Assembly: GCA_963402885.1 (NCBI GenBank)
Contig: OY727095.1
Span: 6,577,001 to 6,641,000 of the forward strand
Direction: 5' to 3'
From: Antedon bifida
Lineage: Eukaryota; Echinodermata; Crinoidea; Comatulida; Antedonidae
Length of the DNA stretch: 64,000 nucleotides
Shown in pieces: positions 41,111 through 64,000 of this stretch. The notes under the pieces are model-generated. The model did no database searches. It was not told the origin of the DNA and saw nothing but the letters and a program-made list of their open reading frames with translations. The translations under genes were made by a program, and so were the position numbers. Numbering within the stretch: position 1 is the first letter of the stretch; the number at the start of each line of letters is the position of its first letter.

Positions 41111-44425
<3,315 letters not shown>

Positions 44426-45073: not shown

Positions 45074-45926
45074 CCTCTCAACTCTTCCTTTTCTCACCAA
45101 CTCTCATTTGAGTAACACGTGTACTAGAGAAGGTGAGAAGACTGATGTAATAATTGACTATTTTGGGTTGTAATGGATTAATATAGTTTGCAAATAAATG
45201 TATTATTATAAACCATGCAATATTATTTCATTATTCAACGTTTATAAGGTAAAAATAGAGTCGAAAATTGTAGCCTAGTTTTCGCGAGGTGAGTGTGAGT
45301 GAACTTAAAGCATGCGCGGCAGAGCAACAATCCGAAGGGCACGTGTGATGTGATGGTCTACCATCTTAGTGTTAAAGTAGCCTAGCTAATAGGAAGGTGT
45401 GAATGATCGGCCTACCCTAGCCGAAATATCGACGATGATTTCTATAGAGAGATTTTGATTACTTTACGATAATGACAATTTGTATTCCATTTTTTTGGGG
45501 GGTGCTCATAATTTTGATGTTAACTCTGCCTTTTTTTAGGAGACATGATTAATTAATTGCCGATGTTGTTTTGTTGATTATCTTCTTGATGTTAATTTTA
45601 TCAAATATGTTTTGATGTGTTAATAAAGAATTGAATTATATTTATAGACGTGTGTATCAATTTCAATAAATAATTTCTATTTATTGGTGCGGCAGGGCCA
45701 ATATAATTTTTGTCTCAATGGAATGCATTTTTTCACTGCATTTTTTTATGCGACTCAATAAGTAACATTGGTTTTGAATGTTCTTGCCAGGTACCTATCT
45801 ATACTTTATACATTACTAGGGAGAGGCCTAATGAATGTAATTTATGAATTCATGGTAAAAAAAAAATAATTGGCCATATTTTTTGATTAGAATTTAATAC
45901 ATACATTTCACTTTTCGCTCGGTATC

Positions 45927-47216
45927 AAATTAACCTCAGGGGTGAGGGAATTTCAATTTCTTTCACTTGTCCCAGGACAAGTACCTGCATGGAATTCACT
46001 TGTCCGAGAAAAAAATTTACTTGTCCCTCTTTATTGCGCAATAGGCGTAATATTGCGCAATAGGCGTAAAATTGCGCAATAGGCGTAAAATTACACAAGT
46101 GTCAACAAATGTCACGCAAGTGTTTATTGTCTATTTAAAATTCAGCAGTTTATAGGCCTAGCCTAGACTTTTTTAGCCCGCTCAATATTTTGATAAAAAT
46201 AACGGTCATTTTTAGGTTTTATTTTATTAACAAAACAGTGTGAGTACTGTAGGCCTAATTAATAAATAGTAGTTAAATAAAAAATAAAAGAATTGAATTA
46301 CCAAAAAAACTGTGGTGTCTATTAATAAATACAAACGTATCATAGCCTAGTCATACATGTGAACTGATCTTTAGTACTGCAGCTATGCCGGCTAGCTAGG
46401 TATTTTTTTTTTTTTAATAATTTCTATTTTGTCCAGGCATAATTAATTAACAAAATAATACCTAATTAATGTAGGGCTAGCTAGGCCCAATACTAATTAA
46501 AGCTTAGGCCTAGACCGTCACCATGGAGAGAGAGAAAAATACCTCCTCTTCAGGCCCCAGGAGGCCATCCATACTCTAGAAGTTAGGCCTCCTACTCTAC
46601 AACTTCTGTACGGAGAGAGGATGTTTTTGTTATTATCCAATTCACTAAATAAAATAGCTTGTTGCATCATTTCACAGGTAAATTTATAAAAAACACTCTT
46701 TTCCCTATGAAACCACTTTATCAATTGTCCGCTCCATGCACGATGTACAGAGAAAAATGAAAATACTGGGCCTACCACCTCCTCGCGTGTGTACAGCCTC
46801 CATGTTGATGCATGGTATTTTTCATCAACAATACCTGGTAGAGTCCATTAATTACGGGGGTTCTTTTTAACTGGGAATTTTTTAATTACCCAGTTAACCT
46901 ATGTCTCAACCACTGCATGGTCCAAAAATGTTTTAATTACCTCCCCAAATAGAAAATCGTGTAATCTATAATGATGTGACTCAGGTCATTGACCAATCAG
47001 TGATGTATTAAATGCACTGGGTTTAATGTGCTTTGAAGAAGCTTGCTATTTTTGTTAATGCACATGGCTAAGTGTTGGCACATGGTTTTCTGTGCTCTTA
47101 GTTTTAATTTCCTGAATTTCAAAAGTGCTTGTCCTGGGACAAGAGGATATGTCAAATGTGGTTGTCCGACCGTAAAAAACACTTGTCCCGGGCGTCGGGC
47201 AAGTGGGTTCGCTCAG
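45927..47216. mobile_element. Possible hAT-like element with CAGGG ends (intron 1 of the host gene)
   Basis: Left CAGGGGTGAGGGAA and right TTCGCTCAGCCCTG are near-inverted. Inverted ACTTGTCC/GGACAAGT motifs lie inside both ends (45964-46025, 47118-47205). CAGGG..CCCTG ends are typical of hAT. The flanks share only AACCT, so the target duplication is unproven. No transposase ORF. Confidence 0.5.
46032..46095. repeat. 19-bp tandem repeat, 3 units
   Basis: ATTGCGCAATAGGCGTAA repeats three times with A/T variation between units. It lies inside the hAT-like element. Confidence 0.85.
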
Positions 47217-47624
47217 CCCTGAACCTTTCCCTTATAGTGTAGAAATTCATAAAAGAAAGGTCTGTAGTATACATAAATACAGGGATTTACTTGAATAGGT
47301 TTTGGTATTTAATTGCCCAATCTTGATTATGTATGTAATTATGTGTCTTCCATGTTTGTTTATAGCGAGTGTATGGTTTTGTGATGATTTTTTTTTAACC
47401 CGATATTAAATGAAGGAAATATTATTAGCTCTATCTGAAAACCATATTAGTATCTGTAGAATCTACACTAGTCATCATTCCCAAATAAATCTTATTATTT
47501 TCTAAATTTACTATATTTCTTGTTTAGAATTGAGCGACTGTTAATCTGTGAACTGAATTTGTCATTGAAATTGAAAAAAAGGTAAATTTTCGTATAAAGA
47601 ATTTAAATTTAAAGAATTGATTTA

Positions 47625-47704
47625 GTGTTGCTATGATGCTCGCATAGTTCAGCTGATTACCATGACGATCTTGCCATAGGATTTCGCCCCTATCTGAGCA
47701 ACAC
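47625..47704 (+). ncRNA. Box C/D snoRNA, SNORD80-like copy 1
   Basis: 80 nt; stem GTGTTGC/GCAACAC; box C ATGATGC; D' CTGA; C' ATGACG; D CTGA. The guide before D' (GCATAGTTCAG) and the guide before D (GGATTTCGCCCCTAT) correspond to CATAGTTCAGC and TTTCGCTCCTAT in vertebrate SNORD80, which targets 28S near A1521 and G1612. SNORD80 resides in GAS5 in vertebrates. Confidence 0.88.
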
Positions 47705-47768
47705 TCTTGAATTGTTTATTGCAATCCCAAGGCTATACTTAATTCAATACATAAATATAGCATAATTA

Positions 47769-47925
47769 TAAAGCTCAACACTATTGAAGTAGTTTGACAA
47801 AAAGTGTGATGTGCCCAAATATGGTAGTGATATGCCCAAATATGGTAGTGATGACATCATTATGTCCCTATATGGGCACATCACATTTTTTGTCGCATAA
47901 AGTTTGATAGTGTAGACAGAGCTTA
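47769..47925. repeat. MITE-1 copy 14 (snoRNA host, intron 2)
   Basis: Both ends are recognisable. It separates the SNORD80-like copy 1 from its 3' splice site; without it the spacing would be about 130 nt instead of 288. Confidence 0.8.
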
Positions 47926-48424
47926 TGGCTCAATAAATGCAGGTTCATTTCTAATTTACGGTATAATTGTGGCTAATTTGATTGTTTTCAGGATTGGTGT
48001 TGTCGAATAAAAACAAAAAATGTTGCAAGTTCAGCTTACAGTAAGTAGTTTATTATTGATTGTATTGCAACAGGCATAACCTTCTGTAAAGATATTTAGC
48101 TTCATTTGCTAAAAATAGTATTTTTCTACATTAAATTTATATAGTTTTTTTCTTAAGAAAATTCCTTAAATACATTGTGGGCAAACGTTGGTGAATTTAA
48201 TGTTTAAACATTAAAAGTCCTATGCCATCATTCTTTAAAAAAAGCTGTGATATAAGTGGGTCATTACTTGCCAAAGAATGTTAAAACTAAAACCATTGTC
48301 TCGTGCCGGCAAGACATTCAAGCTCTTGTTTCACTCTATGCTACATCTCTAATGATTATACTAAATACACAATTTTTATTAAATTTAAAAGCATGATATA
48401 ACTTGTGTAATTATTTTGTAATAC

Positions 48425-48504
48425 GTGTTGCTATGATGCTCGCATAGTTCAGCTGATTACCATGACGATCTTGCCATAGGATTTCGCCCCTATCTGAGCA
48501 ACAC
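48425..48504 (+). ncRNA. Box C/D snoRNA, SNORD80-like copy 2
   Basis: Identical to copy 1 over all 80 bases, exactly 800 bp downstream. It ends 71 nt before the next exon. Flanking intron sequence is not similar, so only the RNA unit is conserved. Confidence 0.9.
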
Positions 48505-48780
48505 AAATTCCAATATTACAGGATAGGTTTGCAGTGAAACATTTGATTTTTAAATATTTTATTTCATTTTTTTAGGCACTAAATATGGTACATGGCAACA
48601 TATTATTGAGAAGAAAAGTAAGTTATATTTTATTTTTCATTTTATTAATTTCGGCAAACACATTATTACAAACAAAACAAGACAAAATAGCTAGATTGCA
48701 CTAAGGAGTGGCAAAAGATTAGGCCAATTAGGCGTGCCACTCGAGTCATAATGCTACTTGAATTTTTATTTGTGTAACCT

Positions 48781-48865
48781 TTTTTGCAAGTGATGATTGA
48801 AGACTAAATTGTCTGATGGACAGTGACTGACCCACGACTTCAACTAGGGCGATCTGATGCAAAAA
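48781..48865 (+). ncRNA. Box C/D snoRNA, unassigned family B, copy 1
   Basis: Stem TTTTTGCA/TGCAAAAA, box C TGATGA, D' CTGATGG, C' GTGACTGA, D CTGA. The D guide ends AACTAGGGCGAT; its target was not identified. It ends 71 nt before the next exon. Confidence 0.82.
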
Positions 48866-49043
48866 ATTGAAAGTTGATATTTGCTTTACATTTCAAATTT
48901 GTCATTGTGTTCTAATTATTATTTTTTATTTTGTAGCACTTAAGATATTGTCGCATGATATGGCCATTGAAATGAGGTAAATTTTCTAGTTTTGTATGCA
49001 AGCTTTTACTCTATATTTTTTGATAATTTATAATTTTTACAAA

Positions 49044-49122
49044 GATTTGTCGAGGAAGAAAACATTGCTACTTTTGACTGTCGTATGATAGTACCCTACC
49101 ACCAAGATCTCAGAGGCAAATC
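49044..49122 (+). ncRNA. SNORD76/SNORD24-like snoRNA with altered boxes, copy 1
   Basis: 79 nt, stem GATTTG/CAAATC. CTACCACCAAGATCT is a 15-nt complement of 28S AGATCTTGGTGGTAG and places 28S C2338 (the SNORD24 site) five bases before the D position. TTGCTACT before a TTGA-type D' matches the SNORD76 guide (28S A2350). Box C reads TCGAGGA and box D reads CAGA instead of TGATGA and CTGA. It ends 76 nt before the next exon. Confidence 0.72.
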
Positions 49123-49330
49123 AATATTAATATGAATTTAGTAAAAATGTAATTTAAAAATATAAATTGTTAAGCTTTATGAATTAAAATTTTTGTAGGT
49201 TTACTAAATTGCAGAATGGATGTTCTCTGGACGAAGTAATACGTAAGTGAAATTGATCTTTTTGTCTTTTTCTTGTATAATGCACAATTATCAAACGTGA
49301 CTATATATTGATATGAATATGTTGTTTCCC

Positions 49331-49468
49331 GATTCTAGAGTCACTGTCGTTGATACATACGTACATGAAACGACCGGTGCTTAAAGTCTCGGACATTAAA
49401 CCTCAGTCTTGCCATATTCGCTGATAGCAGATATCCGCTGCTTTTCAGGCACCCGGTTCGACACAATT
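49331..49468 (+). ncRNA. H/ACA-type snoRNA candidate, copy 1
   Basis: 138 bp repeated almost unchanged at 49691. The first hairpin has GTCGTT/AACGAC; a hinge with ACATTA (fits ANANNA); the second hairpin has AGCAG/CTGCT and outer TGCC/GGCA; the end has ACA plus three bases (GACACAATT). Alone in its intron. Confidence 0.7.
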
Positions 49469-49690
49469 TATAATAAATATATCTGGATTGAATGTTTTGA
49501 ACGTAAATAATCTTCATTTAAATGATTTATGATCGGTTTCTGATAAACTTTTTGTTAAAATGCACCGTTTCATTATATATTAGGTGATGCCTACATTGGA
49601 TGTGTTGGAACGTGCACAGCTTGCAACATTTTATGCACTTGAATAAAATAAGTAAGTTAAAATACATTGACATATGCTTAAAACTTTACC

Positions 49691-49828
49691 GATTCTAGAG
49701 TCACTGTCGTTGATACGAACGTACATGAAACGACCGGTGCTTAAAGTCTCGGACATTAAACCCCAGTCTTGCCATATTCGCTGATAGCAGATATCCGCTG
49801 CTTTTCGGGCACCCGGTTCGACACAATT
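49691..49828 (+). ncRNA. H/ACA-type snoRNA candidate, copy 2
   Basis: Differs from copy 1 at about four positions (for example ACATAC/ACGAAC and TTCAGG/TTCGGG), leaving stems and ACA intact. Copy 1 and copy 2 are in adjacent introns 360 bp apart. Confidence 0.7.
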
Positions 49829-50110
49829 TCGTATCATCTAACAAAAGATGTATTTGATTGGTTACTCGCAAACGCCTCGCAGTTAGCTACTCCCACGAAA
49901 TAAACAGTCTGTAGTTGGAGGAGATAGATCTGCTGATTATATGCACACAATAGCCTATTTCCCCTCTAATGAATATATGTCTATAAACTAAACTATAAAC
50001 TTTTATATAAATTTCAGGAAGTCGCACCAAGGAGGAAGACGGACGTTAGTCGCACCAAATGGTAAGAATAATTTATTTTAATTATTTAATTTATTTTTAA
50101 AGATTATATT

Positions 50111-50184
50111 GTTGCAAATGATGACATCAGAAAGTCATGAGTCACATGATTAAACTAACTTTGGATCGATAGGACTGATGCAAC
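50111..50184 (+). ncRNA. Box C/D snoRNA, unassigned family C
   Basis: Stem GTTGCA/TGCAAC, box C ATGATGA, C' ATGATT, D CTGA. The D guide is CTTTGGATCGATAGGA; target not identified. A TTTTCATAG acceptor 77 nt downstream supports an exon at 50262. Confidence 0.8.
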
Positions 50185-50446
50185 TGAAAATTAAACATGT
50201 TTGATTATATGTATCTGTGTAAATATTGCCGACTATTTGATTTTGGAAATTATTTTCATAGTGAAATGAAAAATGCTGTCTGTCATTGCGTGAAGTTAGA
50301 GTGAAAATGATAAACCTAAACGCAGCTTGCTGGTTGCATCTGATGGCGGTATTTTACATACGTTTTTGGGGGCGTAGCTCCGTGGCGATAAGTCGGCTCT
50401 CTCAAGATTGCCTTTTGACAATGGGTAAGGATGTAATAAATTGATA

Positions 50447-50529
50447 ATTTGCAAGTGATGATTGAAGACTAAATTGTCTGATGGACAGTGACTGACCCAC
50501 GACTTCAACTAGGGCGATCTGATGCAAAT
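50447..50529 (+). ncRNA. Box C/D snoRNA, unassigned family B, copy 2
   Basis: Identical to copy 1 from GCAAGTGATGATTG through CTGATGCAAA. Only the outer stem differs (ATTTGCA/TGCAAAT), still paired. Confidence 0.85.
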
Positions 50530-50951
50530 TAATTTTATCAATAGCATATCATGGAAAAATTTCATTAAAAAATTTTGTTTAGCAATATTGCTAATCAAAC
50601 TGATTTTTGAGTCAAGAAATAGTTTTGTCTTGTATCAATTGTATTTTTTGCTACACAATTTTAAAAATGTGTAGCAATAAGTTTGTTTTGTATAGCTTTT
50701 TGCTATGCTACACTGGCGAAATTATTCCCTGAATATGAAAATTATTATTCTAGAAATATCGGGATGGTGTCCGACGGGGGATAGTTTCACCAAGTACAAA
50801 TTTGGATACTGGCACAATTTGGTAAGTAAATAATCTTGTTTCAATAGGACCCTTTTCCTTCCAAAATATGTTGATTGTTGAAAGAGAAGCTGTTTCACAC
50901 TGCTTCTATGGCAGGCTAGTTACAGAAATTCCTTTCAAGATCATTAAGATT

Positions 50952-51033
50952 TTGCCATAAATGATGACACTAGATAGGGACAAACGATTTACAATGATTA
51001 TAACAACCAATAGTAGTAGACCTGATGTGGCAA
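50952..51033 (+). ncRNA. Box C/D snoRNA, unassigned family D
   Basis: Stem TTGCCA/TGGCAA, box C ATGATGA, C' ATGATT, D CTGA. The D guide is CCAATAGTAGTAGAC. It ends 73 nt before the next exon. Confidence 0.8.
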
Positions 51034-51208
51034 TCTGTTTAAAATAATTCTTGCAAAAAAAAATCCTTTTTATTTTATTAATCTATATTATTTCTTATTT
51101 TAACAGAAACGGCTGGTGTCCAATATATACCATATAAGGTAAAGCACATAACGAATCATACTATGTTACACAATGTCCCAGTTAAGCACTGCATTACATT
51201 TATCATAC

Positions 51209-51376
51209 AAAGGCCAATTTACACAGAGAAGCGGTAACGGTAATACAAATATAAAATCTGTTATTCCTTATAAACATTTACACACAGCGCAGGGTGGACG
51301 GGCGGTTTCCGCTCAGGTTAGATACATATTCTCTGTGGGACAAGGTACGCTGCTCATCTGTGTAAGTTGGCCTTAA
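51209..51376. repeat. MITE-2 copy 1 (AAGGCCAATTTACACAG ends)
   Basis: Left AAGGCCAATTTACACAGAG and right CTGTGTAAGTTGGCCTT are inverted; GCGGTAAC/GGTTTCCGC-like text lies inside. A second member lies at 54963-55122. It lies in the host-gene intron upstream of 51403. Confidence 0.8.
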
Positions 51377-51402
51377 AGGTGTATTGTGATAATTTTTACA
51401 AA

Positions 51403-51481
51403 GATTTGTCGAGGAAGAAAACATTGCTACTTTTGACTGTTGTGTGATAGTACCCTACCACCAAGATCTCGGAGGCAAATC
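51403..51481 (+). ncRNA. SNORD76/SNORD24-like snoRNA with altered boxes, copy 2
   Basis: Same 79-nt unit as 49044-49122, with about three changes between the guides and in box D. Box D is CGGA here (CAGA in copy 1). Stem, box C variant TCGAGGA and both rRNA-complementary guides are unchanged. It ends 69 nt before the next exon. Confidence 0.72.
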
Positions 51482-51707
51482 AAACCATTAAAAAATAGAT
51501 TTTTTAACAATTTAAACAAAGAAAATGAATGAGTTTTTATTTCTCTACAGAACAATGAAACATTGGTATGACTGAGCTATGCATAAAGGTATGTTTTAAA
51601 TATTTGTTTACGATTTGCACGCCTAAGAACTGAAAGCAATTCACATTCCTAGTGGTGAAACAATAGGCTTTTAAACAATTGTTCATTCTAAAATTGCCTA
51701 TAGACAA

Positions 51708-51781
51708 TACCTGTTATGATGACTCAAGAATCGCTGCTAGGGATTTTATATGTGACCATCTTTACTTAGTCTGAGCAGGTA
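51708..51781 (+). ncRNA. Box C/D snoRNA, unassigned family E
   Basis: Stem TACCTG/CAGGTA, box C ATGATGA, D CTGA. The D guide is CATCTTTACTTAGT. A MITE-1 fragment follows at once; without it the distance to the next exon is about 60 nt. Confidence 0.8.
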
Positions 51782-51789
51782 CTTGCTGT

Positions 51790-51912
51790 TGTGCCCATGT
51801 ATGGACATGATGTTGTCGTATCACCAGCTCCCATATTTGGGCATATCACTACCCTATTTGGGCACATCACACTTTTTTGTCAAACTGGTTTGATAGTCTA
51901 GACAGAGCTTTA
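51790..51912. repeat. MITE-1 copy 15, left-truncated
   Basis: Starts at GTGCCCATGTATGGAC; the right arm is complete to GACAGAGCTTTAG. It abuts the snoRNA at 51708-51781. Confidence 0.75.
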
Positions 51913-52054
51913 GACCAATACAATATTAATAACCTGTATAATTAATACAAAATTATTTTTTCAGATTGACTAGATACTGAATATATCTACATGTTGGTTT
52001 AGAAACTAATTGTTACCATGTAAGTAAACTAACTTTAATTAGTTATGTTAGTTG

Positions 52055-52126
52055 CATCGATGATGATTTTGTATCAGAGTGATCCACTAAATGATATCTT
52101 GTGATTTCTCTTCTGAATCTGAGATG
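52055..52126 (+). ncRNA. Box C/D snoRNA candidate F
   Basis: Short stem CATC/GATG, box C ATGATGA, C' ATGATAT, D CTGA, one per intron as elsewhere. The stem is weak, two CTGA motifs overlap the 3' end, and it ends about 197 nt before the next exon, so it is less sure than its neighbours. Confidence 0.5.
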
Positions 52127-52435
52127 AAAAGTTGTTTTTCTTTTGTTACCTACTATCTGCATTTGTAAAATAAATTTCCTGTCTATGTAAATCTATGCTT
52201 ACAAAATGTATTTAAGTAAAGTTGGTAGAAGTATTCTGCATTTAGCTAGCTTGTTCGGTTTCCTTTTGTATTGATAATATTTCCAGTAGTACCAAATTTA
52301 CATAACATCCACATGTTTTACAGATTTGTGATGTTGTCGTTATTGGTTGGCACAGTGTAACCACCATCTTTGAGCCAGGTTAGTATACATGCTTATCTCC
52401 ATTAAGGTCATAGGTCAATGTAGTTTCCTGTGAAC

Positions 52436-52506
52436 TCGCCAATGATGAACAATCTGAGTGATCCAGATGAAAGGAATGATTACATGTATCTTGCAACCTG
52501 AGGTGA
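52436..52506 (+). ncRNA. Box C/D snoRNA, unassigned family G
   Basis: Stem TCGCC/GGTGA, box C ATGATGA, C' ATGATT, D CTGA. The D guide is GTATCTTGCAAC. A MITE-1 fragment follows; without it the distance to the next exon is about 60 nt. Confidence 0.7.
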
Positions 52507-52511
52507 ATCAC

Positions 52512-52594
52512 TGTGATGTGCCCATATATGGACACGGTGATGTCATATCACTACCATATTTGGGCACGTCAAAACTAGTTTGATAGTGTAGACA
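52512..52594. repeat. MITE-1 copy 16, reduced
   Basis: Left terminus missing; the core has one CTACCATATTTGGGCAC unit and a right end GATAGTGTAGACA. Confidence 0.7.
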
Positions 52595-53566
52595 CGTGTA
52601 TCTGAAACATTTCAACGCAATCTGTACCAAGCATCCTTTTTTTGTTTCAGATGAACAAGCATTTATGATTGCACCGGAACGACACTGAGAACAGTCCCGC
52701 TCCGATCTGACCAGCAATAGACAGCTTTTCTGTCAGCTGACGTACAAACTCGTCCGGTATTACCTGCCTCATTCTTTCATTTCATACTCTGCCATTCACT
52801 CTGCCTTTTCTTGTTTACATCTGGCCAGCCGATTCCAGAATGCACGAGAGTCATAGTTGCTTTATTATATTGCTGAAAGAGCATCTTTTACAGCATCAAT
52901 CTTGTATGGGATCACATGAACAGCCTTCAGCATAGTCATTTTCTATAATCATTAATCCATCGTTCGCAATCAATGTTGTAGAATGTATCATTTCGACCAC
53001 CGTGATTTCAATTTTGATGCAATTCAGTCGTGGCTGGCTAAAAGCTAGATCAGCTTGCAAATTGACGTGTAGCATAATTTATTTCCACAGTAAGTAAAAA
53101 AGGGCTTACTTTGTAATGCATGTTCTGCTTTAGCGATAAAAAAAAACAGGGTTAATATCCTTCTTGTTGCCAATGTTTATATTTTAAAACTTTTTTAACC
53201 TGGAGTTGCCCTTTAATGTATGTGTTGGTTGATAATGATTTGTGTCTTCAAATGATGACTATGTGAGGAATCTCACTGAATTATAAATGAAGATTTTAAG
53301 TAGTGGACTGATGCGGACACAAGTCAAATAGATTTCTTTATTAGGATTGGGAATAACTTATCCTTTTGGCTCATTGTATGGTTTGTGATGTAAATAAAAA
53401 CAATTCAGTAATATTGTATTTGGATTTTTCAGATAGGTGTATGATACTGTGTTGGCTGTTCACCTGCAATTTTGAAGGTAATAAATTGATAAACATAGTT
53501 AATAAATTCTGTATACAGCAACAATTACTGACATTTGGTTTCTCTTGAGTTGAATCGTTTTGACCT

Positions 53567-53641
53567 TTGACCAATGATGCAAAACTAATTCTGCCATCAA
53601 GAGTAATTCGATGATAGCAACATTCCGTTCACTGAGGTCAA
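53567..53641 (+). ncRNA. Box C/D snoRNA, unassigned family H
   Basis: Stem TTGACC/GGTCAA, box C ATGATGC, C' ATGATAG, D CTGA. The D guide is CAACATTCCGTTCA. It ends 77 nt before the exon at 53719. Confidence 0.78.
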
Positions 53642-53864
53642 TCAATCGGACCAGATTTTATTGATGACGTAGATCGATAAAATATATTATTAAATAATCT
53701 CATCCATTTGCTTTCCAGAGCTTCAATTCCATGTTTCTTTCCAGGACTTAAAAAAGAGAAATTGTGGTGGTAAGTATCTTCTATTTTTTTAACAGTAGTT
53801 TAATTAATTAGTAAATTTAGTGTAGATCAAAATGTTATATCCGAAATGCTTGTTTTGTTGCAGA

Positions 53865-53935
53865 AAGACATTTGATGAGAACATTTAACTCTCTCGCTGA
53901 AATTTGTTGAAGAGAACGTTTAGTTCTGATGTCTT
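53865..53935 (+). ncRNA. Box C/D snoRNA, unassigned family I
   Basis: Stem AAGACA/TGTCTT, box C TTGATGA, D' CTGA, C' TGAAGA, D CTGA. The D' guide TTAACTCTCTCG resembles the complement of the 28S GAGAGAGTTC region but is imperfect. It ends 67 nt before the exon at 54003. Confidence 0.8.
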
Positions 53936-54057
53936 AAAATACTACTACTATATATAAAACCATAAAATAACAAGAAGTTAATATTTTTATTTTATTTTAC
54001 AGACTCGCAGAAAGCTGTTTGTGTTGTGGGGATGGCTACTCCAGATATATTATTAAG

Positions 54058-54171
54058 GTTCATTTTCAGCTAGTCACTGAACTATTGAGATTGAGTGGTG
54101 GTGACCATGACAAAGTTACCACTGATGTCGTTTGGTGTACTTTACTTGTGGGAAGTTTTAGCAACACAATA
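54058..54171 (+). ncRNA. Duplicated ~115-bp segment, possible H/ACA RNA, copy 1
   Basis: Nearly identical to 58349-58462. GTCAC/GTGAC forms a first hairpin and CCAC/GTGG a possible second, and the end is GCAACACAAT, with ACA near the 3' end. No convincing H box is seen. It fills the last intron of the host gene. Confidence 0.45.
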
Positions 54172-54962
54172 TTTTATATAATGTTACTATATTTTATAGC
54201 ATTATGTTCTTTTCACTTGTAAATTTTGATTCAGTTCCTGACTGCAATAAACATTTTGCAAAACATTTATTGGTTTATTTTCATCAACATCCATTAATGC
54301 TGTGTGAAGACAAGCCTCCAGCATAGCACCAGCATTCCATTTGCATTGTTTTATTCCCTTTTTCCATGCTCATTTTCGACGAAAATAAAACAGCCGACGA
54401 GCACTCTTTGGCAATGCCTTTTGTCACTCCCAGCCCCTGTTGACGTCACATATTGCATATGTGGCTAACTAATTCAACATCATATAGTTTTTCATCTCTA
54501 TGCAAATAACTTAGATGTTAAAATTGGTCAATTTGAAATAAAAAATGTTAAAAAGATACTGTACTTTGATTGTAGTTTGTAATATTTTTGTGTCACTTTA
54601 TCTGGGCAACACAGTACTGTTGCTAGATCTATATAATTCCTCCATGCCTAGTATGTGTGTGCATTATACAAATAATTAATGATATGAGAATATTTCATGA
54701 GTTGAAAAATTGAGTTGGCCTCGTTCGATAGAGAGTCGACGTTGCGTAGCAAAAATTCTCAAAATGTTTGCAGAAACCTTTTTCATGAGATAGGACTAAT
54801 TCCAAATGATATGTCATGCCTAACTGACCAATCAAATTGCATGAATACAATCAGGCGTGTTATAAATATGTATAACGGCTATACAGCCTGTTCCTGAAAA
54901 ATGAGACTGGTTTCATTTTTGGAGTATTATTTATTTAGCATGTGTATGTAGCACACTGTGTT

Positions 54963-55122
54963 AAGGCAAATTTACAGACGAGCGGTAACAAATTCTCTGT
55001 AACGTGCATTAACCTCGAGGCCTACAAGCACCCACTTTCCACCACTCGGCTTGCAAATTACGTGCTCTGTGTAAATGGGACAAGCCAGGCAGTTTCTGCT
55101 CGTCTGTGTAAATTGGCCTTTA
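54963..55122. repeat. MITE-2 copy 2
   Basis: Left AAGGCAAATTTACAGACGAG, right inverted CTGTGTAAATTGGCCTTT. It abuts the 3' tail of the LINE. Confidence 0.8.
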
Positions 55123-55130
55123 CATTGTGT

Positions 55131-58100
55131 TGATTTGATTTGATTTGAATTTATTTGGAAAATCATCATAAAAAAAAAAACATACAAAGTGATAACATAA
55201 ATTACGGACATTACAAATAATACATTTATAAGAGATTTTCCAGGATAGCCCAAAAAGCTTATCAGCTTATTTCCATTGGGATCCTTTTACAATCTAAAAT
55301 AAAAAATATAATCATTACAAAGTATAGCATTAAACACGTAAATATAACAATAATATTAAAAAAAACAGTTAAATTAGAGACTATGATTGACTTATATAGT
55401 TATTTGGTAGAACAGAAATGTGATTTAACATTTTTCTTAAAATTAAATTTGTTTTCTATTTCTTGAATGGAATGAGGTAGGTTATTCCATGCCTTTATGC
55501 CTGTATAATAAAACGTTTTAGATATTTGACTATCAGATTTAGGAACTGAAAAACCATTGACACTACTTCTAGTCATATAATGGTGGTTAGATGAAACTCT
55601 TTGAAACTTTTCAGTCAAATAAGGTACTGATTTTCCATAAAAAATCTTATGAACATGATTAAGTTTGAGTTGGCAAATTCTATCCTCTAGACATAATTGA
55701 CCGATTTGGTTCAGTTCGTCTTTACCAATATGTGCACGATTATTTTTATTTAATATAAACCTAGCAACTTTATTTTGACTGGTTTGGAGTCTTTGTTTAA
55801 GTTTTTTAGAAACACCTGAAAACCAGGAGCAACATGCATAGTCAAAGTGACAAGTAATCAGTGCCGAACATAGAATTTTACGAGAAAAGAAATTTAGACA
55901 TGCAGAATGTCTATACAAAAATTTAAGTCTTGAATTAGTCTTACTAAGAACTTTTTGAACCATAGATTCTCCAGACAGGTCTTCATCAAGCAAACAACCA
56001 AGATATGAGATCATATTCTTCTTACATATCAACTTATTTTTAAACATAACAGCAAAATCATGATGAACATTCTTAAGTTTTCTTTTAGTACCAAACAATA
56101 TTGATTCAGTTTTATCAGGATGTAATGATAGTTTGTTGTTTATAAGCCAGTTGTTACATGATTCCAGGTTTGAACTTAAATCATTAGCTATTTGTCTAAT
56201 ATCATTACCAGAAGACAACAATATCGTATCATCAGCATATAACATAATATTGCAATTTACACTAATTGGGATGTCATTCATGTAGCATATGAACAAAAGA
56301 GGTCCTAAAATGCTACCTTGCGGAACTCCGCTAGATATAGTACATGGTTGGGACTGAACGCCATTTACTGATGTAATTTGTTTGCGATCTTTCAAATATG
56401 ATTCAAACCATAATAAAGAATCTTTATCAATGCCCATATGAACCAGTTTTTGCAATAATATCTGATGGTTGACTGTATCAAAAGCCTTTTGTATGTCAAG
56501 GACCACCAAACCTGTAAAGTTACCTTTAGATATTTCAGATCTTATATGATCGGTTAAATTAATTAAAGCAGTATCAGTAGAATAATTTCCTCTAAAACCT
56601 GATTGAAAATCATTAATTACATTGTTTTCATTGAGATAGTTATGTAATTGTACAAAAACAGCTTTTTCGATTATCTTAGATATTACGGGTAAGATGCTAA
56701 TAGGTCTATAATTACTAACTTCCTGCCTATTGTTCTTTTTAAATAATGGTGTGACCTTAGCAAATTTCATATCATTAGGAAAAACCTTTAGAGATAATGA
56801 TAAATTAACAATATGTGTTATTGGCTGAACAATAATATTAGCTCCATCCTTAAGAAATCTAGCAGGAATGTTATCAAGTCCTGTACTTTTGCTAGGATTT
56901 AAAGAATTTAGTTGGTCAAGTACAAAATCATTAGATATAGTTTGTAAAACGAAACTGTTCTTCTTTATCCCTTTGTTCTTATAGTATTGTTTGAAGGGTG
57001 TAGTATTAACACCAAATATATTATTACAATTTGGTAATTTATCAGTTAACAAAGAAGCAACATTAGTGAAAAATTTGTTGAAGAGATTAGCTACAGAAAA
57101 TGGTTCAGTGCATGGATGACCATTATTATTAAGTACAATTGTATTTTGAGATTTACTTTGTTGACTAAAACCTGTAGATTTTAGGGTTTGCCAAAGTTTT
57201 TTGGGATTACCCTTGTTTTCCTCAATCTTAGTTTTGAAATATTCTGACTTAGCTTTCTTAACATCTCTTTGTATCTTATTTCTTAATTTACAATATTTAG
57301 AGTACATGTCTTTACAATGGTATTTCTTAAATAAAAATAGGTGTTTGTCTCTTTGACGAATATCCAGAAGGATATTATCATTCATCCAAGGTTCAGTTCT
57401 ACATTTAATTCTAACTTCTTTCACAGGAGCTATTTCGTCAATGACACCTAAAAATACAGTTTTAAACCTAAACCAAGCCTCATTTACTTCGTTACATGAT
57501 AAAGTTGACTCCCAATTAACATTAGCAAGTTTGTTAAGCAAGGACTCCTTATTGTAATGTCTCATGCTACGAATACGTATTGTATTATGTCTGTTAATTT
57601 GACATTTCCATATTTTACGGGTACAATATGTGATCAAGTGATCACTTAGACCAACATTTAAAGTACCATATTGTAATATTTTTTCTTTTGAATTGGTAAT
57701 TATATGATCAAGAGTAGTAGCTGTAGTATCGGTTATTCTAGTAGGGATGTCTATAATTTGAGAACAATTAAATAAACTTAATACATCTTTATACCTTTTC
57801 AATAGTGGTTCATCTTGACTATTAAAATTAATATTAAAATCACCTAAAAGATACAATTCACAATCAGATCTTAAGTTTAAGAAGGATGACTCTAAGTTTT
57901 CAAGAAATGCTTTACAAGTGGGAGGGCGATAAAAACATCCAACAGCAATAGGTTTCGACTTGGGTAGCAATATATCAATCCAAATTGATTCTAGACTGTC
58001 AATATTCATTTCAGGTTTTGTATTGAACGATACATCATTTCTTATGTAGATACACACTCCTCCTCCATTTCGATTTCTGTCTTTCCTTGTGATTGTATAA

Positions 58101-58190
58101 CCTTGAATCTCTACTTCAGCATCTGTTACACTGTTGTCTAACCAAGTTTCAGATAATGCTAATAATGTTGCACATTCATAACGATTTGTA
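55131..58190 (-). mobile_element. CR1/L2-type non-LTR retrotransposon, 5' truncated
   Basis: The minus-strand body runs from about 58190 to a 3' tail of repeated TCAAA units near 55131-55152. It has no 5' UTR or ORF1, and its 5' break lies against a MITE-1 relic. Clade is inferred from the protein layout and tail; it could be another member of the Jockey/CR1/L2 group. Confidence 0.88.
55400..58057 (-). CDS. LINE ORF2: endonuclease and reverse transcriptase
   Basis: An uninterrupted 885-codon ORF that stays open upstream another about 44 codons to 58190 (ALSETWLDNSV, an endonuclease motif), so the true start is lost. APE-type endonuclease text: GCFYRPP near residue 42 and LGDFNINF near 72. 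Reverse transcriptase text: NYRPISILPVISKIIEK, DFQSGFRG, VVLDIQKAFDTVNH, SSGVPQGSILGPLLF and the catalytic LYADDT (YADD, near residue 606). A C-terminal region with conserved Cys/His/Trp follows (CHFDYACCSWF). The absence of stops suggests recent insertion. Confidence 0.93.
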   Translation of the reverse strand: MCIYIRNDVSFNTKPEMNIDSLESIWIDILLPKSKPIAVGCFYRPPTCKAFLENLESSFLNLRSDCELYLLGDFNINFNSQDEPLLKRYKDVLSLFNCSQIIDIPTRITDTTATTLDHIITNSKEKILQYGTLNVGLSDHLITYCTRKIWKCQINRHNTIRIRSMRHYNKESLLNKLANVNWESTLSCNEVNEAWFRFKTVFLGVIDEIAPVKEVRIKCRTEPWMNDNILLDIRQRDKHLFLFKKYHCKDMYSKYCKLRNKIQRDVKKAKSEYFKTKIEENKGNPKKLWQTLKSTGFSQQSKSQNTIVLNNNGHPCTEPFSVANLFNKFFTNVASLLTDKLPNCNNIFGVNTTPFKQYYKNKGIKKNSFVLQTISNDFVLDQLNSLNPSKSTGLDNIPARFLKDGANIIVQPITHIVNLSLSLKVFPNDMKFAKVTPLFKKNNRQEVSNYRPISILPVISKIIEKAVFVQLHNYLNENNVINDFQSGFRGNYSTDTALINLTDHIRSEISKGNFTGLVVLDIQKAFDTVNHQILLQKLVHMGIDKDSLLWFESYLKDRKQITSVNGVQSQPCTISSGVPQGSILGPLLFICYMNDIPISVNCNIMLYADDTILLSSGNDIRQIANDLSSNLESCNNWLINNKLSLHPDKTESILFGTKRKLKNVHHDFAVMFKNKLICKKNMISYLGCLLDEDLSGESMVQKVLSKTNSRLKFLYRHSACLNFFSRKILCSALITCHFDYACCSWFSGVSKKLKQRLQTSQNKVARFILNKNNRAHIGKDELNQIGQLCLEDRICQLKLNHVHKIFYGKSVPYLTEKFQRVSSNHHYMTRSSVNGFSVPKSDSQISKTFYYTGIKAWNNLPHSIQEIENKFNFKKNVKSHFCSTK

Positions 58191-58263
58191 AAGCTCTGTC
58201 TACACTATCCAACATTTGGGCACGTCACACTTTTTTGTCTAACTAGTCAAGACGGAGCTTTAG
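58190..58263. repeat. MITE-1 copy 17, internally deleted
   Basis: Both termini remain, with only CATTTGGGCACGTCACAC between. It sits exactly at the LINE's 5' truncation. Confidence 0.7.
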
Positions 58264-58348
58264 ATGCGGTGTGTACAAAAACATAATAATGCTTGCCTTA
58301 GTTGAATGATTAATGATCGACTGAATAGTTGAATACAGAATTTGACCT

Positions 58349-58462
58349 GTTCATTTTCAGCTAGTCACTGAACTATTGATATGGAGTGGTGGTGACCATG
58401 ACAAAGTTACCACTGATGTCATTTGGTGTACTTTACTTATGGGAAGTTTGAGCAACACAATA
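58349..58462 (+). ncRNA. Duplicated ~115-bp segment, possible H/ACA RNA, copy 2
   Basis: Matches 54058-54171 with about seven changes, from GTTCATTTTCAGCTAGTC to AGCAACACAATATTTTAT. It lies on the far side of the LINE from copy 1, outside the inferred end of the host gene. Confidence 0.4.
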
Positions 58463-58635
58463 TTTTATAATTATTAAATACCATTCACAAGTATGATTAG
58501 TTACAGAGAATTTAATTTGTGTGTACAATATAAACTAAATATATTACTACTGGTTGTAATGCAATACACCGTATACAGAATTGTACTATACTATTCTGCA
58601 AGTACGATTCATTATAAGAAACAAAACTACAATCA

Positions 58636-58690
58636 TGGGCACATCACATTTTTTTGTCGCATAAAGTTTGATGGCGTAGACAGAGCTTTA
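58636..58690. repeat. MITE-1 copy 18, right end only
   Basis: ATGGGCACATCACATTTT through CGTAGACAGAGCTTTA; about a third of an element. Confidence 0.65.
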
Positions 58691-58927
58691 AATTACAATG
58701 TGGGAGTAAAAGAAACCAAATGTCGCTAGTTGTTGCTGTATACAGAATTTATTAACTATGTGTATACATGTACAGATTACAATCTGGGAGTATGAGAAGA
58801 GAAAGCAAATAACGCTATTAGTTGCTGTATACAGAATTTAAAGTGTACATTAATATCTGCAAGTAGTGTAGGAGTATATATTCCAGGTTGTTGTTGATTG
58901 TCACTGGTGAAGAATATCTATTCACAA

Positions 58928-61900
58928 TTAAGTACTCCCAGACGGTCTGTAAAAAAAATACATTTGTATTAGTTTTTTGGTTTGTTGAGACAAATTGCCT
59001 GAATTCATTCACTATCCTTCTTAAAGGTGGCAATCCTGTTCGCATACATATACACAAGATGCTCTACATAAACAAAGTCTTATTACAAGTCTTTGGGAGT
59101 GGAGTTGTAAATTGTCATTAGAAAAAATCCTGACATGACAGGACTTGAACCCAGGACCCTTGGATTGGTAGCCGAGCATCATAACCACCAAGCCTCAACT
59201 CCACTAAACTAAAAATACTGTATTACAAAGCATGAGAGATTTCTACTTACTTTGCCCATTCAACTTTGAGAATTAAATGATCATAACCATAACCGGAGAC
59301 TCCAGCAATAGCTCGAGCGGCGTCCTCTCGATGATGAAAATTAATAAAAGCAAATCCCTGCAATAATAAACAATGTATCCATAAACGATGTCTGTATTAT
59401 GTGGGTTTTACTATTTGCAGTGTTTTAATATTTGATATCAACAGTGTATAAAGCTCTGTCTACACCATCAAACTAGTTTGACAAAAAAATATGCCCAAAT
59501 ATGGTAGTAATATGACATCAACATGTCCATATATGGTGACATCACATTCGTTTGATAGTGTAGACAGAGCTTTAGATTTTTGATTTACCTTTGACATGCC
59601 TGTATTTTTGTCCATTGCGAGGTATATCCTCTGAATCGCTCCAAAAGGTCGGAATAATTCTTGAAGGTCAGGCTCCCTGGTATCTTCTGATAAATTAGTA
59701 ACTCTAATAGTTGCTCCATCATCTAACAAAAAACAAAATTTAACCCTTTTTATTTGGTCAAAGCTGTAGATGTGGTGTACAATCACTCACCTAACACACC
59801 TAAAATTCCCTTGTACACACAAGATACAAACAACAAACCTACACCCCTGGATGTAGCTACACCCCTGGATGTAGCTACACCCCTGGATGTAGCTACACTA
59901 CTGGATGCAGCTACACTCTTGGATGTATGTGTAATTAACACTTTAGATTAGAAACATTTATCTTACCTCTTTTGTTATCACGATCACCCCCTCTGGCTGC
60001 TTCTGCTCCCTTCCTCTTGCCAGGTGGAATGTACTTGCCAGTTGAGGCCCCTGTAGATCCAGGCTCGGCAGCTTCAAATAAATAAGATTATAAAAATTAG
60101 TTAACTACATAATTGTTAATGCGTCTTTGTGTACGTTCATAATATAATCACCAACTTGGTGTGTTGGTCCAAATAGATGCACCATGGTATCATTAAAGTT
60201 ATGCCCTACTGGCAACGTTCGTCGATAAATATTTGTTGTAATTTATTATTTTAATCGTTTTAACAGTATTTTACAGAGCCTTTGGCGCTTTTGTAATCTG
60301 CATTTTTAATAGTTTTTTAACAGTATTTTAACATTGCCTTTTGCAATTTGATGTATTTTTCTTTGTTGTTTTATTGTCTTAATTTAATGCCAAGCAAAAC
60401 AAATTTCCATTTTAAAGTGGACCAATAACATTCTGGAATATTCTTGAATAGGCAGATCCAGACCAAATTGCAATGCAAAAGATAGGACATAGGTTAGGTT
60501 CAGTACCTAATTTTACAATGTTTAGGCCCTAGGCCTAGGCTACCCTACCCTGCTGACCAACTTACTTCCGTTCTCCTCAGGTGGCTTGTCTGCTGCTGCT
60601 AGCTCTTTCTGCAGTGGTTCCAATGTATCCTTATATGGACATTTTGTTGTCCAATGGTCTCCTTTACAGACACGGCACATTACCATCTTTTGCGCAGCGG
60701 CGATACGCTTGATTGGGTCATCACTCTCATTGGTTGCATTCAACTCCTGAAAACAAGAATACATTTTATAAATAAATTCAAATAACGCAAAATATTTGTC
60801 AATCCATTCCAATCAACTGGCATTCATTTACTGTATTTTTTCTTCAATTTTCGAATTCGGTTATGCATTATCATGCGTAGTTATTCATGCTCACTGCTGA
60901 TTGGACAAAAGAAAAAACAATTTCAGCAAGCAAATGGCTTCTTGATCTATTGCACACAAATTTGGAGTCCGAATCAGGTACGGATTCAAATCATACAAAT
61001 TCAATGTGAACGATCTTATGCTTTGCATTGAACCCATTTTCCTTGATAATTTACTCAGGGCACCGGAGTAAATCTGGGCGTGATGTGAAAGCAGCAGCTC
61101 TTTCTCCACAAAAAAATGTGATGTGCCCATATATGGACATGATGATGTCATATAACTACCATATTTGGGCATATCACACTTTTTTGTTAAACTAGTTTGA
61201 TAGTGTAGACAGAGCTTAATATTGACGATATCTGTTGATATTATCTGGCTTACATCTTTGGCCGTGATGAACTGCATGAATATATCGTCAGAGATTGTAG
61301 TTGTAACTGGGTTAGGTCCTGAACCATCTTGGCTAGCTGAACCAAACTTAGGCCAAGCCTGCAAGAAATCACATCATATAATACTACTCATTTTGTATTT
61401 AGACTTTATGTGTATATTTTTATTGCATTATTATCATTACTTATTCTTTATACTGGGTGGCCTTTTCAGTCACAGACTGTTCTCCCAGAGTGGCTGTGTG
61501 TGTTCTAGTACACCGGGGTAAACCCCTACTCGAAAGATGTAGTAGGTTCCTTAAAGTGCACATGAGCTAGATGTGTACACTGGACCTACGGTTTATAGTC
61601 CTTATCCGAGAAGACTTGTTCTACCTCCAGAACTATGGATCGAATGAGCCTAGAACCCTTGCCGGTGTTATGGCTATGTAATTACGGTTCCACGGTCTCC
61701 ACCCTTTAGCCACTCAATCGTTACTTCATGTGTCTTGTGTATTGTCAATTGAAGATAGATTAAATAGTTACCTTTCTTGTTGCAACTGTTTTAGAAGCTT
61801 TTCTTTGTTCTATATTGAAGGTTCGTATAACCTAAAAGAAAATAACCAGAAATTACATGAAAGAGAATGCAAAGATACAAGAGAAGAAATACTCTTTTAA

Positions 61901-62438
61901 AATCATTTTAGGTTGTGTTGTAGTATTGAACAATTTTCTTTCTTTTTTAAAATAAATTTACCTTCTGTAGTTTTCCGTTTTCTTCCCGTCTGTATTCAAT
62001 CAATTTCTTTGTGTTTCCTTTAATTATTTCTTCATTTTGAGGAACGTCTAATTAATAAACATATTTATAAATATTACATTAATTAATAGGCTTATTAAAT
62101 TAGGCCACTGACGCAAGGACCTGGCCTATAATTATAGTATTATTATTCAATATAAAATAAAAAGGTAAAGTAAATTTAGAATTAGGCCTAGGTTCAAATC
62201 AAAGCTAAGTATCTGCTGATTGATTGACAGATGATTGAAACATCGTATTTTTATTTATTTATACATCACAGAAAATGAACCACGTGTATACGTTATATTG
62301 CAAATATCCTAGGCCTTGTATTCGCCTAAAACACAAGTCAACCAACACAACACAGTTGCCCAACGGCAGAAGGCCAGTCTGTTCGGTCTACTTACGTCGT
62401 TCCTCTTCGACTTGATCGGCCCAACTTTTGCTGTTCAT
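58928..62438 (-). CDS. EIF3G: Translation initiation factor eIF3 subunit G
   Basis: eIF3g is an RNA-binding subunit of the eIF3 initiation complex in the cytosol. Nine exons (62438-62396, 62047-61962, 61831-61772, 61358-61254, 60746-60566, 60071-59967, 59722-59589, 59357-59251, 58946-58928) join in phase to give 279 residues (human 320). Order: [10 protein letters not shown] terminus, [19 protein letters not shown], zinc knuckle [17 protein letters not shown], linker [13 protein letters not shown], then an RRM with [21 protein letters not shown] (RNP2/RNP1 surroundings) and [17 protein letters not shown]. An in-frame TAA follows EWAK at the exon 8 border, but splicing to a 19-nt coding tail adds PSGST, close to the human PSTN end, so I chose the spliced form. 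Confidence 0.93.
59117..59206 (-). repeat. tRNA-derived SINE family B, head only
   Basis: On the minus strand: AGTGGAGTTGAGGCTTGGTG and CTGGGTTCAAGTCCTG (B-box-like). It lies in the last EIF3G intron; the body is absent. Confidence 0.65.
59449..59574. repeat. MITE-1 copy 19 (EIF3G intron 7)
   Basis: Both ends present with a shortened core. It lies about 15 bp from the donor of the seventh exon. Confidence 0.8.
59843..59928. repeat. 17-bp tandem repeat (EIF3G intron 6)
   Basis: Five units of ACCCCTGGATGTAGCTAC; the first three are identical, the last two diverged. Confidence 0.9.
61106..61218. repeat. MITE-1 copy 20 (EIF3G intron 4)
   Basis: Left terminus lost (starts CACAAAAAAATGTGATG); right terminus complete. 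Confidence 0.78.
61448..61720 (-). repeat. tRNA-derived SINE family A, second copy
   Basis: Inverse of 28766-29068: GGGTGGCCTTTTCAGTCAC at the tail side, ATGAGCTAGATGTGTACACTG in the body, and a decayed tRNA head near 61660-61720. It lies in EIF3G intron 3. Confidence 0.8.
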
Positions 62439-63123
62439 TTTTATCTAAGCAAGTAAAAATATTTCGGTCATTACACAAAATCCTTTATTAAGCATATTAG
62501 GTGTATATATTAGTAAATGGATTTTGTAATTTACTTACGTTTAAGCCTACCATATGAACAATATAATCGCCAAAGAAAAAACCATGCGGCTCACTATCTT
62601 CCGATCCTTCTTTTCTTCCCCCTCGTTTTAATTATTTTCCCTAATGTCGTAGCGCGTTACAATTGCGTCAGTAATCTTAAGTGTGAACGCAATCCGCCCA
62701 ACTTCGGTTTTAATTTACCTGCTGCTGGACTTTATTAAAATGCTGCCCTCTATAATACAGTAAAATAATTCGATTCGTACTACTTTTGCGTTGATTGATT
62801 GCGCAACCACCACATGTGCGCGGCGTACATGAATCTGTAATAATATAATGTGGAAACCAATAAAATAATAATAATAATATTTGCAAGTAGACAAAATTCA
62901 TAACTATATTTTTTTAGTCAACTTTCATTTTGTGTGTCGGGTTCGTACTTATGGTACAAACTAGGTCTGTCCGTCCTTCAGAGTTCGCCACATGGTCGAT
63001 GAGGAAAGTTTGTTTACTGTTTTTTTTGTTTACTCTGTGTTTTTATATAAAAACAAATCCAGTATGGACCAGTCGTGATAATTATAACAACTGGTCACTG
63101 TTGTTGGTTGTTAATTCATTTAA
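62439..63123. promoter_or_regulatory. Divergent promoter region, EIF3G / FOXRED1-like gene
   Basis: Start codons are 685 bp apart on opposite strands. No TATA box is evident. Short plus-strand ORFs here overlap both 5' regions without support. Confidence 0.45.
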
Positions 63124-63414
63124 ATGGCCACTATTCGGCTATTTCCAAGACTATTTGGTAATGCAGTAGAACAAACGATAAGCATAAGGTTGCGTAAACA
63201 TGTATCCGGTTCTTTTATCGGTTCTAGGCACCATAATTGTCTAGGCCTAACAAGGACGAGGAATCTGAACACTGACTCGCCGCATAGAAATCGACCTCCC
63301 CCTGATGTGGACGTTGTGGTTATCGGTGGTGCGGTGATGGGGTCTAGCATAGCATACTTTTTAAAGAAACACAATTATAACATGTCTGTTCTGGTTGTTG
63401 AGAAAGATTCACAG
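63124..63414 (+). CDS. FOXRED1-like FAD oxidoreductase, first coding exon
   Basis: 97 codons end in phase 0 at CAG before GTTTGTG; the rest of the gene is outside the window. The first about 50 residues are basic (MATIRLFPRLFGNAV, RLRKHVSG), like a mitochondrial targeting sequence. Then comes the FAD-binding beta-alpha-beta start VDVVVIGGAVMGSSIAYFLK and VLVVEKDSQ. The layout matches FOXRED1, a mitochondrial factor for complex I assembly, but sarcosine or dimethylglycine dehydrogenase relatives share this motif. The middle Gly of GxGxxG is Ala here (GGAVMG, residues 68-73). Confidence 0.65.
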
Positions 63415-63493
63415 GTTTGTGTATTTTATTTGAATGTTTAAATTTATTGCAGGACAGGAACTTATTCCCGGCCTAGGCCTAGGCCTATATTGA

Positions 63494-63826
63494 ATTGTCC
63501 CCTCACCCCTACTAAAATTGTTTGTTCATTTTAATGTCACATAATTAACTTTGACAACAAATTTGATCGAAAAAAAAATTATTTACCTGAAAAAATGTAA
63601 TTTCTTAAAGCAAAAAGTACCGAAATTGTCAATCAGACAATAGAAAGAATATCAATAGCTTTTGGTTACAATTAACAGTTTCTTTTGTCTTTTTATAATA
63701 AGTGAAGTAATTTTTTTTTCTTCAGTTTTTTCCCTACAGAAGAAGTGAATAACTTGTTTGAAGCTGCAAAATGGCCTATTCAAAGTCTGATTTTATTAAT
63801 CTTCATTTTTCATGTTTTTGGGGACA
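63494..63826. mobile_element. Short inverted-end element (ATTGTCCCC type), copy 2
   Basis: Left ATTGTCCCC at 63495 and right GGGGACAAT at 63817 are inverted. The right side (TGATTTTATTAATCTTC, then GGGGACAATACATCTTTAAT) matches the left side of 40161-40640 in reverse. It lies in the first intron of the FOXRED1-like gene. Confidence 0.6.
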
Positions 63827-63978
63827 ATACATCTTTAATATTTTATTTACCATCTGTTTAATATTCTAATCAAGTCTATAGACTATATGAAAATTACTAA
63901 TGTCTTCTCATAGAGGTATGAAAAACCATCCTTTAAAATCTTATGAAAATCTGGCAAAAACTTGTTGAGTAATCCTTT

Positions 63979-64000
63979 TAAAGCTCTACACTATTAAACT
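63979..64000. repeat. MITE-1 copy 21, cut by window end
   Basis: AAAGCTCTACACTATTAAAC is a decayed left terminus; the rest lies beyond the window. Confidence 0.55.

Follow-up and report, generated by a model that had tools for sequence, protein, structure and literature searches.

Is GAS5, known from vertebrates as a non-protein-coding host of intronic small nucleolar RNAs (snoRNAs), a vertebrate gene or an older one? The question is raised by a locus of the feather star Antedon bifida, on contig OY727095.1 of assembly GCA_963402885.1, which was analyzed in a window of 64,000 nucleotides (nt) (positions 6,577,001 to 6,641,000; all coordinates below are positions within the window). The original prediction, made from the sequence alone, was that this locus is a GAS5-like host gene and that GAS5-type organization "predates vertebrates, or arose twice." The gene lies on the plus strand at 45.08 to 54.26 kb and, by splice consensus, can be modeled as 18 exons and 17 introns; all 17 introns hold one snoRNA-like unit each, 15 of them of the C/D class and two copies of an H/ACA-like unit. 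Judged from its sequence, the locus appears to be a multi-snoRNA, non-protein-coding host gene that is most likely, and with fair assurance, the orthologue of vertebrate GAS5. If so, GAS5 would predate the split between echinoderms and chordates. To our knowledge, long noncoding RNA (lncRNA) genes are rarely traced beyond the vertebrates.

Excess of snoRNA units and of GAS5 guides

C/D units were sought with a finder that tolerated no more than 1 mismatch in the C box (RTGATGA), demanded an exact CTGA, and required 4 or more Watson-Crick pairs in the terminal stem. Between positions 45133 and 54002, it returned 12 matches on the plus strand and 0 on the minus strand, compared with a mean of 0.21 and a maximum of 2 in 100 dinucleotide shuffles of the gene; chance clustering of C/D units is therefore rejected. 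Elsewhere in the window, the finder gave 2 plus-strand matches and 1 minus-strand match at 1 to 45000, and 1 and 0, respectively, at 54300 to 64000. With no C-box mismatch allowed, 8 matches remained in the gene and none in the shuffles. The 12 units sit in 12 of the 17 modeled introns, at most one per intron. In the five other introns, units were assigned by eye, from Rfam, and by folding, and these comprise the two H/ACA copies, two C/D copies with degenerate boxes, and a SNORD79-like unit with a mismatch in the terminal stem. The predicted arrangement of one unit in almost every intron is thus borne out, whereas the predicted number of about 15 was too low, the count being 17 with the two H/ACA copies included.

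The guides of C/D small nucleolar ribonucleoproteins (snoRNPs) direct fibrillarin to rRNA. The guide content of the gene was compared with 24 rRNA sites, taken from a ribosomal DNA (L002) in the numbering of the chicken table, with the site letter as a check, and supplemented by four typed contexts (scans of viral contigs yielded no eukaryotic rRNA). A guide was operationally defined as in register if its fifth base, counted from a D-like box that has no more than 1 mismatch, lies opposite the methylated base; C2183 was dropped because its letter in L002 disagreed, and the SNORD78 site is outside the 24. At a cutoff of 7.5, a guide in the gene was found for 7 of the 9 GAS5 sites versus 2 of the 15 other rRNA sites; the corresponding fractions were 6/9 versus 2/15 at a cutoff of 8 and 4/9 versus 1/15 at both 8.5 and 9. 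The 500 shuffles used as controls had, on average, 0.45, 0.33, 0.13, and 0.09 passing GAS5 sites at the cutoffs of 7.5, 8, 8.5, and 9, with maxima of 3, 3, 2, and 2. Individual sites passed in few of the 500 shuffles (G1560, 0; A1469, 1; A165, 2; C3514, 4; A413, 4; A3319, 6), with the exception of A2124, the SNORD76 site, for which 57 passed, so that the SNORD76-site guide is weak by itself. The sites outside the GAS5 set that passed are C2112, matched inside the SNORD76-type unit, and G3388, matched in modeled exon 17, outside any unit.

The guides in register are those of SNORD44, 80, 76, 79, 75, and 81. The C3330 site of SNORD74 fails under the stricter D' box because that box is ACGA, and reaches 12 bp in register once 2 D'-box mismatches are allowed. 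For the C3376 site of SNORD47, no D' guide was found in register at either box stringency, be it with the L002 target, the human target, or a hypothetical Antedon variant, and the SNORD47 assignment is therefore tentative; the human target forms 8 bp, including two G-U pairs, with the D guide of the unit in question. The prediction had named SNORD80 and SNORD76 only; both guides are present, but the list was too short, given that SNORD44, 75, 79, and 81 also pass, SNORD74 does so with a relaxed box, and SNORD47 is a tentative addition.

The share of GAS5 families in the gene was also compared with that in a vertebrate snoRNA complement. Among the 12 distinct C/D units, 7 belong to GAS5 families if SNORD47 is counted and 6 if it is not, whereas GAS5 residents account for 9 of 83 chicken guide snoRNAs. 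The post hoc hypergeometric probability against this background is 6e-6, rising to 1.7e-4 without SNORD47 and to 2.5e-3 when SNORD74 is left out too. The excess of GAS5 guides favors common descent over a second origin and so lends support to the first of the two options in the original prediction.

Transcript model and units by intron

Exon 1 (45082 to 45132; plus strand, as are all exons and units) carries the pyrimidine tract CTCTTCCTTTTCTC at 45082 to 45095, which reads as the predicted tract resembling a 5' terminal oligopyrimidine (5'TOP) motif and at which transcription would start; the exon ends at the donor GAAG/GTGAGA. By splice consensus, it is followed by exons 2 (47528 to 47581), 3 (47992 to 48040), 4 (48576 to 48617), 5 (48937 to 48976), 6 (49199 to 49242), 7 (49584 to 49651), 8 (50018 to 50061), 9 (50378 to 50424, with the weakest donor in the model), 10 (50754 to 50821), 11 (51107 to 51138), 12 (51551 to 51588), 13 (51965 to 52019), 14 (52324 to 52378), 15 (52651 to 53089), 16 (53433 to 53477), and 17 (53719 to 53769, with a possible alternative acceptor at 53745). 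The last exon, 18 (54003 to 54262), was placed from its acceptor and from an AATAAA at 54246 to 54251, near which the transcript would end. Sixteen of the 18 exons measure 32 to 68 nt; the others are the last one (260 nt) and exon 15, which is unusually long (439 nt) and may contain another intron. This model is a hypothesis, because the exons were picked by eye from splice consensus when the snoRNA units were already known.

The spliced model is 1481 nt long, and its longest open reading frame (ORF), in the 3' part, encodes 79 amino acids. That frame could be seen as the trace of a protein-coding host whose ORF was missed, but an equally long ORF occurs in 52 of 300 shuffles, which is chance level, and the exon lengths, in a model that is itself unproven, keep no reading frame. 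A protein-coding host is therefore rejected as highly improbable. The claim of about 18 short exons devoid of a shared ORF holds for this model, and the transcript is probably noncoding.

Intron 1 contains a C/D unit (47374 to 47444) with the SNORD44 guide TTATTAGCTCTA-T-CTGA, whose site we take to be 18S A166 in human numbering; Rfam gives no SNORD44 family match for this unit. Introns 2 and 3 harbor copies a (47624 to 47705) and b (48424 to 48505) of SNORD80/snR60, which match Rfam RF00309 at 51.3 and 50.9 bits, both above the gathering cutoff of 41, and share an identical 80-nt core. Copy a carries both guides, in agreement with the original prediction. The unit CDa, detected by the finder, occurs in intron 4 (48784 to 48863) and, 100% identical, in intron 9 (50449 to 50528); in the latter copy, AACTAGGGCG is aligned to the D guide of Rfam snoU43 at 27.5 bits, below the cutoff of 45.

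The SNORD76/24-type unit is likewise present twice, in introns 5 (49043 to 49122; Rfam SNORD24, 33.9 bits, below the cutoff of 41) and 11 (51402 to 51481; SNORD24, 33.2 bits), the copies being 97% identical. The intron 5 copy combines the SNORD76-site D' guide TTGCTACTT-TTGA, which had been foreseen in a unit other than SNORD80, with a guide for the C2112 site of SNORD24, and no family named SNORD76 is among the Rfam matches listed for it. Its boxes are degenerate (C, AGGAAGA; D, CAGA), and the D box of the intron 11 copy is CGGA. Despite the degenerate boxes, the guides and the terminal stem are intact in both copies, which may be working variants or decaying ones.

The H/ACA-like unit was recognized from its fold, with the boxes read by eye, in intron 6 (49329 to 49468); it consists of two hairpins with an H box (ACATTA) and a terminal ACA. 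A second copy, 97% identical and folding alike, lies in intron 7 (49689 to 49828), and SNORA3 is its sole Rfam match (20.1 bits; E value, 2.5). The C/D unit CDb in intron 8 (50113 to 50185) has the D guide GGATCGATAGGA, complementary to CCTATCGATCC, presumably a 28S segment and a candidate target. Intron 10 contains the SNORD74-type unit (50953 to 51032), with the D' guide CTAGATAGGGACA next to the degenerate ACGA box; its Rfam matches, Me28S-C2645 (29.0 bits) and TtnuCD23 (37 bits), are below cutoff, and no family named SNORD74 is among those listed. Introns 12 to 14 carry the finder-detected units CDc (51709 to 51782; no Rfam match up to an E value of 1), CDd (52055 to 52127), and CDe (52437 to 52507), the last two with weak Rfam matches only (top scores, 19.4 and 22.2 bits, respectively).

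The unit in intron 15 (53241 to 53322) bears two guides, that of SNORD79, GGAATCTCA-CTGA, at D' and that of SNORD75, AAGTAGTGGA-CTGA, at D; it matches Rfam SNORD79 at 30.1 bits (cutoff, 47), and no family named SNORD75 is among the matches listed. The tentative SNORD47-type unit of intron 16 (53563 to 53642), with AATTCTGCCA near D', scores 24.9 bits for SNORD47 (cutoff, 50) and is outscored by SNORD115 at 26.6 bits. Finally, intron 17 holds a SNORD81-type unit (53864 to 53937; Rfam SNORD81, 31.8 bits; cutoff, 50) with AACTCTCTC-G-CTGA at D', a run of 9 that is reached in 4 of 500 shuffles; the 28S rRNA of Antedon is predicted to read GAGAGAGTTAAA at the SNORD81 site. The Rfam comparison proposed together with the original prediction thus bore out SNORD80, with SNORD79, 47, and 81 below cutoff and SNORD44, 74, 75, and 76 without a family match.

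Four units, then, are present as near-identical pairs (97 to 100% identity; 96.6 to 100% over the stretches compared), and the 60-nt flanks on each side of the paired units are only 22 to 40% alike; the copies therefore appear to have moved as units, not as introns. In a post hoc comparison, 7 of 9 units with GAS5 guides lie 65 to 83 nt from the 3' splice site, versus 1 of 6 other C/D units.

The anatomy suggests how such a gene would work. RNA polymerase II would start at the 5'TOP-like initiator, as in a TOP-class gene, and the precursor would be spliced through its approximately 18 mostly short exons. The 17 introns would be debranched and trimmed, each releasing one snoRNP-protected snoRNA, so that the introns would constitute the gene product and the exonic RNA a by-product. 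Most C/D units with recognized guides would direct 2'-O-methylation of 18S and 28S rRNA at vertebrate GAS5 sites, and the two H/ACA copies would direct pseudouridylation.

Neighboring genes and repeats

Beside the host gene lies a reading frame of a long interspersed nuclear element (55400 to 58057, minus strand); across 61% of its length, it shares 98% identity with a protein of Antedon mediterranea, an echinoderm of the class Crinoidea. A vertebrate origin of the window is rejected on these grounds, in keeping with the invertebrate genome that had been predicted. On the other side, an HSP70 gene at 41111 to 44092 (minus strand) contains the Pfam HSP70 domain in both pieces, and the HDEL end of its last piece suggests a BiP-type protein. 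This gene and the host gene point away from each other in a head-to-head arrangement, and roughly 1 kb separates the known coding pieces of HSP70 from the pyrimidine tract. Genes for eIF3g and a flavin adenine dinucleotide (FAD) oxidoreductase were also identified nearby.

The window further includes RPL7A, identified by a match to eL8 (Pfam found no family in the first piece). Its introns contain a U24-like unit and two copies of SNORD36 (20424 to 20500, plus strand; 21121 to 21194; 21726 to 21799). The U24-like unit has the D' guide ATATTTGCTA and is absent from the Rfam matches at gathering score. Chicken RPL7A hosts U24 and U36. As a protein-coding host, RPL7A is unlike the gene studied here; it offers a yardstick for the conservation of links between snoRNAs and hosts, with a vertebrate snoRNA linkage apparently retained in a crinoid.

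A palindromic repeat resembling a miniature inverted-repeat transposable element, GTGCCCAWATATGG ... GTTTGATAGTGTAGAC, occurs at 47799 to 47918, at 52515 to 52594, and at many other places in the window, including introns of the host gene and of RPL7A. Within the first intron of the snoRNA host, three tandem copies around TTGCGCAATAGGCGTAA occupy 46036 to 46095.

Comparison with GAS5 and other noncoding host genes

The Antedon gene, as modeled, resembles GAS5 in being noncoding, with many short exons and intronic snoRNAs, and its pyrimidine tract may correspond to the 5'TOP start of GAS5. The vertebrate GAS5 transcript is spliced and is regulated by growth and by nonsense-mediated decay (NMD). 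Out of nine GAS5 families, six are represented in register, in addition to SNORD74 with its relaxed box and the tentative SNORD47. The human order is SNORD74-75-76-77-44-78-79-80-47-81, and the order of residents is kept between chicken and human except for U77/U80. In chicken GAS5 (mRNA CR387333), as in Antedon, SNORD80 has two copies, and the position of the guide within the molecule agrees for SNORD44, 80, 76, 74, 79, and 81 but differs for SNORD75. SNORD79, 47, and 81 reside in chicken introns 9, 11, and 12, with none listed for intron 10, and the last three introns of the Antedon gene run in this same order, the SNORD47 member being tentative; 24 of 5040 permutations agree with this end order, which was picked after it had been seen and is thus post hoc. 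The four upstream families are reversed relative to chicken (44-80-76-74), an observation given no weight here.

Several observations weigh against orthology with GAS5. The upstream snoRNA order differs; two H/ACA-like copies are present, whereas human and chicken GAS5 contain only C/D units (C/D-only content was not taken as defining GAS5); a SNORD78 guide was not found anywhere in the gene; and the Antedon neighbors, HSP70, RPL7A, eIF3g, and the FAD oxidoreductase, include none known to flank vertebrate GAS5, neighborhood being a supporting and not a defining criterion. Moreover, snoRNAs are described as mobile and snoRNA-host links as unstable across eukaryotes (PMC3511168). Further differences are the 17 units of the Antedon gene and its guide pairings, with the SNORD79 and 75 guides on a single molecule and the C2112 guide paired with that of SNORD76. 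In the chicken study, however, GAS5 is described as a hotspot at which vertebrate snoRNAs have expanded, and turnover in an orthologue is therefore to be expected.

The same observations could be explained by convergence, that is, a noncoding host of separate origin within the crinoids or the echinoderms that gathered common rRNA guides by intragenomic mobility, among them, by coincidence, some that vertebrate GAS5 hosts as well. The documented mobility, the unit copies with unrelated flanks, the dissimilar upstream order, and the H/ACA units all fit this scenario, as does the existence in Drosophila of its own Uhg genes, also described as having one snoRNA per intron (PMC4430873). Convergence is nevertheless unlikely, given the GAS5 share among the distinct C/D units, the 15 other rRNA sites that show no comparable excess, and the 79-47-81 order at the 3' end.

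Orthology with GAS5 thus being preferred, we lean, somewhat less firmly than for orthology itself, toward a GAS5 inherited from at least the common ancestor of echinoderms and chordates, its snoRNA payload kept as a unit while exons, upstream order, and guide pairings turned over. After that split, the Antedon lineage would have gained internal copies, lost SNORD78 or never had it, and moved guides between molecules. If this is true, GAS5 dates to the deuterostome ancestor and is among the oldest traceable lncRNA genes; its old parts (the payload, the TOP start, and one unit per intron) become testable across phyla; and the pairings of the SNORD79 guide with that of SNORD75 and of SNORD76 with the C2112 guide show recombination of guides between snoRNA molecules. 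No title among the matches listed, which were judged by title and by the opening of the abstract, announces GAS5 outside vertebrates, subscription literature being for the most part beyond this scope.

An even older gene can be envisaged, in which GAS5 and the Antedon gene are remnants of an ancestral bilaterian or animal host whose protostome counterparts stand unrecognized among the Uhg genes. This possibility extends the orthology with GAS5 and is compatible with it. The SNORD74-type unit resembles Drosophila Me28S-C2645 in both guides, and the Uhg genes share the architecture; conversely, the content of such a protostome host was not found in the accessible part of the literature on snoRNA hosts, and so old a host seems rather doubtful. 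The Drosophila Uhg genes (1 to 5, 7, and 8) are described as lacking a recognizable ORF and as containing as many as 16 introns, almost every one of which holds a single snoRNA (PMC4430873). Their likeness to the Antedon gene is one of architecture, namely, the missing ORF and one snoRNA per intron, guides being outside this comparison; because they are built alike, the architecture is of a known kind. The Antedon gene can accordingly be placed among the noncoding snoRNA host genes (the UHG/SNHG class), with orthology to GAS5 likely although unproven, and the new element, as far as the guides indicate, is what appears to be the GAS5 payload in an echinoderm.

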